A DNA stretch of 64,000 nt, from NCBI GenBank assembly GCA_026421245.1, contig JAPKDJ010000003.1, forward strand, positions 1 through 64,000, in the 5' to 3' direction. The notes beneath the pieces were generated by a model that was not told the origin of the DNA, did no database searches, and saw nothing but the letters and a program-made list of their open reading frames with translations. Position 1 is the stretch's first letter. Each line of letters begins with the position of its first letter. The translations under genes and the position numbers were made by a program. Shown here piece after piece: positions 29,162 through 34,578 of the stretch. This stretch comes from Akkermansiaceae bacterium. Its GTDB lineage: Bacteria; Verrucomicrobiota; Verrucomicrobiia; Verrucomicrobiales; Akkermansiaceae.

Positions 29162-30160
29162 TCAGCAGCAACACCAAAAATCCACACCTTCCCGATACCT
29201 CTCTCGTTGTGCCAGCGCTCGAACCTTGTCGCGCCCACCTACAACTCCGACAGCCGAAAGCAAGGTCGCTCCTCTCCATTTTTTCCCGAATTCCTCCAGC
29301 CCGACGATCGGGGCCCCCTGACAAGAACTTCCCACTCTCTTTGGATTTACCTCAAAATAGCCATGCACCATGATCCCTCTCGCAATCAATTCTCTCCCAA
29401 GAACCTTGCCGATAGGACCTGCTCCGGAAATCGCGACCCCTCCATTTTGGATCAGCGGCATCCGGGAAAGGGCATGGGCCTTCAGTTCCAGCATCTTCTT
29501 TTGTCCAAACCTGGGATCACTTCGAGTGAGACGGTCACCTCGATCATGCCATTGATAGAGCTTCTCCGGCACCTTCCCAAAACGAGCTCCTTTTTCCAAA
29601 AGACGGAGCCACAGGTCATAGTCCTCCGCAAAGCCATTCCGCAAATACCCGCCGGCAGAAAGAAGAAGCTCTTTCGACATCATCACGGTAGGCTGTACCA
29701 CAGGACTTTCGACGAATCTCTCCTGCGAAACTTTTTCCGGGCTATCCAAATCATTTACCCAATCAACATATCGATACATTCCATCCCCGAGCCCGCCGAT
29801 TAGCTCGATGCCGCAGCTCACCACCTCGCACTCCCTGGAACAAAGGAACTCAACCTGACGCTCGATCCGTGACGCCTCGCACCGGTCGTCAGAATCCATC
29901 CTCGCCAACCACCGCCCCGTACTACGATTCACTCCAACCTCCAACGCACTCAGCAATTGTGGATCTTCGCCAAGGTCGATTACGATGAGCCTGGCATCTC
30001 TTCTCCCCAAAAACTCGTCCCTAACTTTCGCAAGACAGCCATTGAGGACTGCCATAATTTCTAAATCTCCCCAACTCTGGTTAAGAAGATCATCCAAGGC
30101 CAATCCTGCATCCTCCACACCCGGCCCCACTGGAAATACGACAGAAACTTTTCCGGCCAT
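29162..30160 (-). CDS. family 2 glycosyltransferase with C-terminal Rossmann-like domain
   Basis: A 332-residue protein. Residues 1-230 are a GT2 domain: VSVVFPVGPGVEDAGLALDD, the DXD-like RWLARMDSDDRCE, PVVQPTVMMSKELLLSAGGY and the catalytic GFAEDYDLWLRLLEKG. Residues 245-332 form a second small domain starting GVAISGAGPIGKVLGRELIARG, a dinucleotide-binding-like pattern, ending in three cysteines (DFWCCC). The ATG at 30160 follows directly on the stop of the CPXCG gene (TGATG), so the two are translationally coupled. The sugar donor and acceptor are unknown. Its 3' end is about 85 bases from the tRNA-Pro gene. Confidence 0.85.
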   Translation of the reverse strand: MAGKVSVVFPVGPGVEDAGLALDDLLNQSWGDLEIMAVLNGCLAKVRDEFLGRRDARLIVIDLGEDPQLLSALEVGVNRSTGRWLARMDSDDRCEASRIERQVEFLCSRECEVVSCGIELIGGLGDGMYRYVDWVNDLDSPEKVSQERFVESPVVQPTVMMSKELLLSAGGYLRNGFAEDYDLWLRLLEKGARFGKVPEKLYQWHDRGDRLTRSDPRFGQKKMLELKAHALSRMPLIQNGGVAISGAGPIGKVLGRELIARGIMVHGYFEVNPKRVGSSCQGAPIVGLEEFGKKWRGATLLSAVGVVGGRDKVRALAQRERYREGVDFWCCC

Positions 30161-30330
30161 CAAAATCCTCCGGTAGAAGTTATTCCGCCATTCTCATCGA
30201 CCATGAGCAGCATTGGCCGTCAACAAACCTCGCAATCATAATCCAGTTGCGTCCCGAAGTCTTCGGGAGCAATAGCAGCTACCTCAAACCATTCCCCACA
30301 TGAAGGGCACTGAACCTGACGATCGCTCAT
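30160..30330 (-). CDS. CPXCG-type cysteine-rich protein, probable selenoprotein (in-frame TGA)
   Basis: A tiny protein of 56 codons from ATG 30330. It begins MSDRQVQCPSCGEWFEVAA, with the CPXCG knuckle at 8-12, and continues to YDCEVC at 31-36. Codon 37 is TGA (30222-30220) and is followed by RPMLLMVDENGG and a second TGA at 30162-30160. In the CPXCG family the corresponding stretch is DCEVCCxP, so TGA replaces the second of two adjacent conserved cysteines. A SECIS-like hairpin follows the TGA, and the longer frame ends in a TGATG overlap with the glycosyltransferase gene. I read codon 37 as selenocysteine; a nonsense mutation or read error is the alternative. An in-frame TTG six codons upstream is a less likely start. 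Family function is unknown; the Cys residues probably bind zinc or act in redox. Confidence 0.72.
30187..30222 (-). promoter_or_regulatory. SECIS-like stem-loop at in-frame TGA
   Basis: Reading the minus strand from the TGA at 30222-30220, 17 bases precede the 5-base loop GGTCG (30202-30198). The loop is closed by a perfect 5-bp stem, CTCAT with ATGAG. An outer 4-bp stem, GCCA (30217-30214) with TGGC (30190-30187), encloses an internal loop. The E. coli fdhF SECIS also carries GGUC in its loop at nearly the same distance from UGA. This is the expected geometry for recruiting SelB with Sec-tRNA. Confidence 0.65.
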
Positions 30331-31812: not shown

Positions 31813-34578
31813 ATGACCGAGGATCGCTATGAAATCCGTAGTAAGATTGGCCAAGGAGGTGTCGGTGCAGTCTACCGGGCCTTCGATCGCCATCTGAATC
31901 GCGAAATTGCGATCAAGCGGGTCCTTGCAGACGGTGGCTACGAAAACCAGGAAGAGGCCACCGAAGCCATGCTTAAGGAGGCCACCGCCCTTTGCTCGGT
32001 CCAGCACCCCCACATCGTAACTGTTTTCGATGCGGGGGTGGATAAAGATGGTCCCTACGTCGTCATGGAACTTCTCTCCGGTCGCACCATCGATGAAATG
32101 ATCGAACGCGGCACGCTCACCTTTGAGGACTTCCGCGAAGTTGCCGTGCAAAGCCAGGAAGCCCTCATCGCCGCGCAAGCCCTCGACCTTGTCCACCGTG
32201 ACATCAAGCCCACCAACCTCATGGTGACCTGGCTACCCAGCGGGCGTTTTCAATTGAAGCTGGTTGATTTTGGCCTCGCAAAATTTTCCCCAAAGCCCTC
32301 GCTCCAAACCATCTCCCATAGCGACGCCGTCTTCGGCTCTATCCACTTTATGGCGCCCGAGCAATTCGAGCGTATCCCTCTTGATAAGCGCACCGACATG
32401 TATTCGATGGGCTGCGTTTACTACTACGCTCTGTCCGGGCGCTACCCCTTCGATGGCAAAACCGCTCCGCAAGTGATGAACGCCCACCTCCAGCACGAGG
32501 TCATTCCTATCTCCGAACTCCGCCCTGATCTTCCGGCGTGGGTTTCCGACTGGGTCATGTGGCACATTGCCCGCCCAATGGAAGATCGACCCGGTGATGC
32601 CCGTGAATCTTTAAAAAAATTCCTTATGAGTGAAAACAACCCCACAGACGGAACTCCCGAGGTTCCCTCAGATCCTTCTCAAGCAGCCCCTGCTCCCGAA
32701 TCCGGCACCCCTCTGGTCAATCCCCAGGGAGTAACCGGACCGGTGAATACGACGACTGCTCCACAGCCCATTCAACCGCCCGCCGGTCAGGCTCCGTCCA
32801 TCCATACTGCAGCCCAACAGGTCCAAGCCACTCCAGCTGCACCCCAAGCCACTCGCCCCAAGCTACTCATCCCCGGACAGGCGCCAGCACCTGCGGCCCC
32901 CGCTCCCCTCGCCCCTCCACCTGAAGCAGCCGCTCCTGAGCCTGTGGCACCAACTCTGGTTCAACGTGCCGCCCCAGCACCCATTGCCCCAGCCGCCAAC
33001 CCTCTTATAATACCAGTCACACCAGCACCAGCACCAGCACCAGCACCCGCTCCAGCACCCGCTCCAGCACCCGCTCCAGCACCCGCTCCAGCACCCGCTC
33101 CGGTTCCCGTAGCTCCTCCGGCCGCGGCACCTCCAGTCCAATCTGTCGTCCCCGCGCCGCAGATCACTGTCCCTTTGATCGGAACTCCAGCCGTTCCGCC
33201 TCAACCCGTAGCTCCCGCTGCCCCAGCCAATCCTCTCTTGGTTGCCAGAGCCGCGCCTTTGGCTGCCGCTCCACCAGCCCAACCGGCCGCTGCCCCTGTT
33301 TTCCCACTCGGTGCCCCTCCTCAGCCAGCCCAACACCCAGCCGGTGTCGGAAATGTTGGTGGAGTAGGCGTAGGCTCGCTTTCCCAGTCTGGACAAGGAA
33401 AGAGCATGAGCAATGCCGTCAAAGGAATGATCGCGGCAGCTCTTGTGGCCGGTCTCATCGTTGCGGGAGTCATCTACGCTGGCAAATCAGCGACAAACGA
33501 CCAAATCAAACGTCTCAACGAGATTACCGCCGTCTTTAAAGATAAAGACAATCCTCCCGAGGAAATCGATCTTTCAGGCGACGACGTTCAGATGCTTCTT
33601 GATAGTCTTTCCACCCTCGGAGCAAAGGAGAAAGGTGAACGTGCCACCTATCTCCAAGCTCTCAATATCGGAAAAGCAACCGACGGCACTGACATCAGCG
33701 AAAAGGTCGCATCCTATGCCAAGGACATATCCATGGATTCCGGCCTTCGTATCAAGCTGTTCCAGCTTGTCGGAGCAAGGGGGGATGAAAGCGCTTTGTC
33801 CTCGCTGATCGAATACGCCAGCAAAACCGATGAATCCGGGCCCGGCCTAGCCGCTCTCAACGCAACCAAGAAAATGGCCTCGACTTCAAACTTCGAAAGC
33901 CTTCTTTCCATCATTACGACATCTTCCAATTCCTCGATCAAAAACTCGGCGGTGGGCATCTTAAGCAACGTGGTCCGCAAATCGGAAAACCCTTCAGCCT
34001 TTTCCAAGGGAATGGTCGGAACTTATAAAAACACTTCGGATGAAGACTCGAAGGTCGCACTCCTTCGCCTCATGGGATCCGCGGGTGGCGACGAGGCAGC
34101 CTCGCTCGTAAAGGTAAGCCTCGAAGGAGACAATCCCAAGATGAAAGTCGCTGCGGTCTATGCCCTCCGTAACTGGCCCGATGATTCCCAATTCGACACC
34201 CTCTTCGAATACACCTCTGAAGAGGAAGACGACCGCCTCCGTCGCGAGGGGTTCACCGCCCTCATCGAATTCCTCAAGGACGGACCTAAAATGGACGAAG
34301 ACGACCTGGCGATCTACTGGAGCGACGTCGCCGGAATTGCCACTGGAGATACCGAGCAACGGTTCGTCATCGACTCCATGGTTTCACAAAACGGAGCCTG
34401 GGCCGACGATATCCTCGACTACTTCATCGAAGATGGTGACTCCGAAAGGGTTCAAGCCCGTGCCGAAGACGCCAAGGATAAGCACGCCGAGCGAATGACA
34501 CGAGCCAAGCGAAGCGGTGCTTCTTCCGATGCCGAAGATGCCCCCGAAGAAGAGAAGACTTCAGACGAAGACGAGTAA
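31813..34578 (+). CDS. transmembrane Ser/Thr protein kinase with HEAT-like sensor domain
   Basis: A 921-residue Hanks-type kinase. Residues 1-275 are the kinase: glycine loop IGQGGVGAVYRAF, ATP lysine in EIAIKRVL, catalytic loop DLVHRDIKPTNLM, DFGLAKF, and MAPEQFERIPLDKRTDMYSMG. Residues 280-530 are a low-complexity Ala/Pro linker. A single membrane helix (MIAAALVAGLIVAGVIYAG) lies near 540-560. The outer part, 565-890, is alpha-helical with HEAT-like repeats, and the tail is acidic. The helical domain may sense a ligand or partner. The lipoprotein gene after the terminator repeats its first 75 residues or so. The spacer upstream (31540-31812) shows nothing recognisable. Confidence 0.9.
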   Translation: MTEDRYEIRSKIGQGGVGAVYRAFDRHLNREIAIKRVLADGGYENQEEATEAMLKEATALCSVQHPHIVTVFDAGVDKDGPYVVMELLSGRTIDEMIERGTLTFEDFREVAVQSQEALIAAQALDLVHRDIKPTNLMVTWLPSGRFQLKLVDFGLAKFSPKPSLQTISHSDAVFGSIHFMAPEQFERIPLDKRTDMYSMGCVYYYALSGRYPFDGKTAPQVMNAHLQHEVIPISELRPDLPAWVSDWVMWHIARPMEDRPGDARESLKKFLMSENNPTDGTPEVPSDPSQAAPAPESGTPLVNPQGVTGPVNTTTAPQPIQPPAGQAPSIHTAAQQVQATPAAPQATRPKLLIPGQAPAPAAPAPLAPPPEAAAPEPVAPTLVQRAAPAPIAPAANPLIIPVTPAPAPAPAPAPAPAPAPAPAPAPAPAPVPVAPPAAAPPVQSVVPAPQITVPLIGTPAVPPQPVAPAAPANPLLVARAAPLAAAPPAQPAAAPVFPLGAPPQPAQHPAGVGNVGGVGVGSLSQSGQGKSMSNAVKGMIAAALVAGLIVAGVIYAGKSATNDQIKRLNEITAVFKDKDNPPEEIDLSGDDVQMLLDSLSTLGAKEKGERATYLQALNIGKATDGTDISEKVASYAKDISMDSGLRIKLFQLVGARGDESALSSLIEYASKTDESGPGLAALNATKKMASTSNFESLLSIITTSSNSSIKNSAVGILSNVVRKSENPSAFSKGMVGTYKNTSDEDSKVALLRLMGSAGGDEAASLVKVSLEGDNPKMKVAAVYALRNWPDDSQFDTLFEYTSEEEDDRLRREGFTALIEFLKDGPKMDEDDLAIYWSDVAGIATGDTEQRFVIDSMVSQNGAWADDILDYFIEDGDSERVQARAEDAKDKHAERMTRAKRSGASSDAEDAPEEEKTSDEDE
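33019..33107 (+). repeat. in-frame short tandem repeats (Ala-Pro)
   Basis: Within the kinase gene, 6-base units CCAGCA pass into five copies of the 12-base unit GCACCCGCTCCA, encoding an uninterrupted Ala-Pro run. The near-identical copies suggest slippage and variable linker length. Confidence 0.9.

Follow-up and report, generated by a model that had tools for sequence, protein, structure and literature searches.

A selenocysteine-containing CPXCG protein predicted in one genus of the Akkermansiaceae

A small gene of the Cys_rich_CPXG family (PF14255) was found to carry an in-frame UGA, codon 37, that genome data very strongly predict to be decoded as selenocysteine (Sec). The gene lies in a 64,000-nucleotide stretch of DNA from an Akkermansiaceae bacterium, referred to here as the window. 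Because CPXCG/PF14255 is absent from the 119 prokaryotic selenoprotein families and subfamilies catalogued in a 2026 review (PMC13188914), and because a literature search found no paper joining selenoproteins with CPXCG or PF14255, we call the family new; an earlier note on this DNA, which knew of no CPXCG selenoproteins, is in agreement with the catalogue. Sec-containing CPXCG is thus probably a new selenoprotein family using a known decoding mechanism, although the metagenomic candidate GOS_A, compared by its text description, may be the same family. If the Sec decoding is true, it stands as one family more beside the roughly 119 listed.

Gene structure and family assignment

The coordinates of the features are given in Table 1. 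The earlier note had proposed a selenoprotein gene at these coordinates, which were retained; the minus strand, left unsaid there, is added here. Translation from the ATG at 30330–30328 gives MSDRQVQCPSCGEWFEVAAIAPEDFGTQLDYDCEVC-U-RPMLLMVDENGGITSTGGF, with the motif CPxCG...DCxxC-U-RP. The protein, scored with the TGA read as Cys, matches PF14255 with an E value of 9.4e-9 and 35.5 bits, over the curated cut-off of 25.2, and is the sole PF14255 match in the source genome. No NCBIfam match to it was obtained at E <= 1. The PF14255 alignment comprises residues 6–46 and so spans the TGA.

Table 1. Features on the minus strand of the window
Feature	Position	Strand	Description	Basis
Predicted Sec-containing CPXCG gene	30160..30330	-	56 residues, Sec at 37; stop TGA 30162-30160	Reading frame, PF14255 match, homologues
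In-frame TGA, codon 37, predicted to be read as Sec	30220..30222	-	Second Cys of DCxxCC	TGA in 16/23 genus homologues, TGC/TGT in 7/23
bSECIS-like hairpin CUCAU-GGUCG-AUGAG	30193..30207	-	Apical loop 30202-30198	Comparison of TGA forms, folding
Glycosyltransferase family 2 gene, next after CPXCG gene	29162..30160	-	Adjacent to the Sec as well as the Cys forms of the genus	PF00535, E 8.4e-11

The terminal TGA overlaps the ATG of the glycosyltransferase gene (30160–30158) as TGATG. This overlap, which is indeed present, had been said in the earlier note to make sense only if ribosomes pass the first TGA; we regard it as suggestive and not as compelling, because in other TGA homologues the terminal stop is TAG or lies clear of the next gene. 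Elsewhere in the window, an Ala/Pro-rich low-complexity repeat (32863–33396) lies within a Ser/Thr kinase-like ORF (31813–34578), the opposite strand of which has long spurious ORFs.

Selenocysteine machinery of the genome

The source genome (93% complete) contains selA (E 8.7e-122), selB (C-terminal wing, E 6.6e-17, within a 648-aa frame), a tRNA-Sec scoring 55 bits, above the Rfam cut-off, and annotated by ARAGORN as tRNA-SeC(tca) with anticodon UCA, and selD (E 4.7e-116). All four genes that the earlier note had named for searching, selA, selB, selC and selD, are therefore present. The selD gene (G000:C68:142009-142938, minus strand) has one in-frame TGA of its own, in the motif SSCGG-U-ASK, with a hairpin ACGCAA-GUC-UUGCGU 33 nt downstream. 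Given this set of genes, the organism very probably makes one or more selenoproteins of an established type, selD being very probably a second selenoprotein gene of the genome.

The selA gene was found in 70 of 260 genomes of the family and in 25 of the 27 genomes of the genus. Three genomes of the genus (G391, G401 and G407) have selA, with no CPXG gene detected, which suggests that other selenoproteins account for the retention of their Sec machinery.

Exchange of Cys and Sec among relatives

Homologues of the CPXCG gene were identified in 23 of the 27 genus genomes; at the identical codon, 16 have TGA and seven have TGC or TGT. The 16 TGA-form genomes gave 16 distinct CPXCG sequences. At family level a homologue was present in 149 of 260 genomes and, among the matches listed, which took in all but a few weak ones, the TGA form occurred only in the source genus. 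No further TGA form appeared among the matches listed for the class sample or in the phylum sample, and neither a tblastn search of plasmids nor a scan of viral contigs returned relatives. Cys occupies the codon-37 position in 37 of 37 readable class and family homologues (38 others in total). The claim that the TGA falls on a conserved Cys is borne out by these counts.

Within the genus, most Sec forms and Cys forms are followed by the same glycosyltransferase gene and are therefore positional orthologues. On a SelA tree, used as a proxy for the species, the Cys and Sec states need at least three changes, the tree being poorly resolved within the genus and giving a minimum count of changes, not their direction. 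All seven Cys-form genomes retain selA, so the exchange is not explained by loss of the machinery.

The first CxxC of the Cys forms of the genus (L056–L061 and L063) reads CPTCFE or CPTCHE, not CPSCGE. The Sec or Cys state is thus also accompanied by a difference next to the first metal motif.

The hairpin downstream of the UGA

Hairpin positions were numbered from the first base past the TGA. The window copy (CTCAT-GGTCG-ATGAG in DNA) starts 12 nt past the TGA, with its loop 17 nt past the UGA. The consensus stem pairs positions 12–17 with 23–28 about the loop GGUCG (18–22); in the window the outermost pair, 12–28, is a G-A mismatch and the stem has 5 bp. All 16 TGA forms share the GGUC loop without variation, and codon +7, which supplies it, is GTC in 16/16 TGA forms versus 0/7 Cys forms, a hypergeometric probability of 1 in 245,157 that assumes independent sequences and is made weaker by their relatedness. 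The hairpin with a GGTC loop at SECIS spacing, as described in the earlier note, is hence retained where the codon is TGA and lost where it encodes Cys.

The helix is 89% paired, versus 22–47% when slid. In L064, the most divergent TGA form, the stem is kept through two double changes, one replacing G-C by C-G and the other A-U by G-C; the covariation is thin, both compensatory changes being in this single sequence. In the simple register the hairpin is weak in L049, L053 and L055. A GGUC tetraloop with a bulged U gives a better fit in L044, L045, L049 and L055, and L049 and L055 pair better in this arrangement.

Synonymous change points to the same element. In the TGA forms pS is 0.16 at codons +5 to +9, compared with 0.81 upstream of the TGA and 0.74 further downstream, and with 0.67 for the Cys forms at codons +5 to +9. 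This drop at the hairpin codons, found in TGA forms but not in Cys forms, indicates an RNA constraint that exists only with the TGA.

The hairpin is short (5–6 bp). Folded alone, the window copy reaches about -4.8 kcal/mol, against a published bSECIS limit of -7.5 kcal/mol or lower; the 45 nt past the TGA fold at -10.2 kcal/mol in the window and at -7.7 to -17.5 kcal/mol across the TGA forms. In stem, loop and spacing the element conforms to the published bSECIS model, in which the spacing is 16–37 nt (PMC13188914). A covariance model of the element found a single significant site in the genome (E 8e-15; next best 0.14). Its weak matches L104–L106, L108 and L114 were inspected and did not resemble the element. 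No SECIS family of Rfam matched the region.

Decoding of codon 37

The machinery genes, the Cys/Sec exchange and the hairpin support the assignment of codon 37 to Sec made in the earlier note. That note had held that missing machinery, or relatives with random stops and no hairpin, would speak against it; the machinery is present, and relatives have the hairpin and TGA at one codon. By homology to the known pathway, SelB-GTP with Sec-tRNA(Sec) would be recruited by the downstream hairpin, and Sec would be inserted at UGA 37, where relatives have an invariant Cys.

Hairpins located 3' of stop codons can promote readthrough, and the UGA could in principle be read by a near-cognate tRNA, for example that for Trp or Cys, with the hairpin as stimulator and no Sec involved. 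We consider this very improbable, since TGC/TGT are the only codons that alternate with the TGA, at a position where Cys is otherwise invariant, since the genome has the full Sec machinery and an in-frame TGA in selD itself, and since a GGUC loop at a spacing of 17 nt agrees with the published model (PMC13188914).

A smaller probability still is given to a genuine stop. TGA is an ordinary stop in table 11, and the gene might be decaying or encode a truncated CPXG protein of 36 residues that still has the four likely zinc Cys, the downstream similarity being a relic. Against this, 16 separate genomes retain TGA at one codon, and the hairpin is constrained in the TGA forms only. Past the TGA, RPMxLMVDEQGG is conserved in the TGA forms, no other disruptions occur and pN/pS is 0.30 (codons +1 to +11), so that coding constraint continues; together with the PF14255 alignment to residue 46, this upholds the continued reading frame claimed earlier. 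An error of sequencing or assembly, or an artefact turning TGC into TGA, has a negligible probability: metagenome assemblies make up many of the genomes, but the TGA is found in 16 genomes with 16 distinct sequences and is tied to GTC at +7.

Protein structure and possible role

The predicted Sec-containing protein has two conserved CxxC pairs, Cys8/Cys11 and Cys33/Cys36, and Sec37 adjoins Cys36. An AF2 model of it is fairly confident (pLDDT 84.7) and has a small, mostly beta fold. The best PDB fold match, a weak one, is LysW (Foldseek E 0.28, TM 0.53), and a PDB sequence search returned zinc fingers and LysW only. The two CxxC pairs suggest a zinc-ribbon-like protein in which Cys8, Cys11, Cys33 and Cys36 are predicted to bind zinc.

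Sec usually takes the place of a redox-active Cys. The second Cys of DCxxCC is for this reason a likely reactive residue in the widespread Cys_rich_CPXG family. Tentatively, Cys36-Sec37 may be a putative redox or metal switch, in which formation of a selenenylsulfide would release or regulate the metal. It is conceivable, if rather doubtful, that the selenoprotein family arose in one verrucomicrobial genus by a Cys-to-Sec change beside a zinc-ribbon ligand, forming such a switch, and that Sec and Cys replaced each other repeatedly among congeners in which the Sec machinery is retained.

The genus, in which a single syntenic site holds Sec as well as Cys orthologues and nearly all genomes have selA, offers a natural system for studies of Cys/Sec exchange and of SECIS gain and loss. 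Such genes will probably be cut short at codon 36 by gene finders.

Comparison with known systems

As in bacterial SECIS elements, the hairpin is directly 3' of the UGA within the coding region, its loop starts with GG and its spacing of 17 nt is in range; the E. coli fdhF SECIS also has a GGUC apical loop. The window copy differs in its shorter upper stem (5–6 bp) and low stability. By sequence the CPXCG protein is a member of PF14255, over the Pfam cut-off and with every motif Cys present, but the window gene has TGA, predicted as Sec, at a position that is Cys in the remaining readable members from the class and family. LysW (PDB 3wwn_B and 5k2m), a small zinc-binding ribbon, is the best lead by fold and sequence profile, although the matches are weak and membership is without basis.

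GOS_A, a hypothetical protein proposed as a metagenomic candidate in 2008 with two Sec and 155 Cys sequences (PMC2398784), may be the same family as CPXCG, the comparison being with its text description only. The FmdB-family (TIGR02605) and dual-CXXC (NF041197) proteins are, like the CPXCG protein, small Cys-motif proteins predicted as selenoproteins (PMC13188914). They are other families, and the Sec motif of the CPXCG protein is C-U after CxxC, not UxxU, RxU or GxU.
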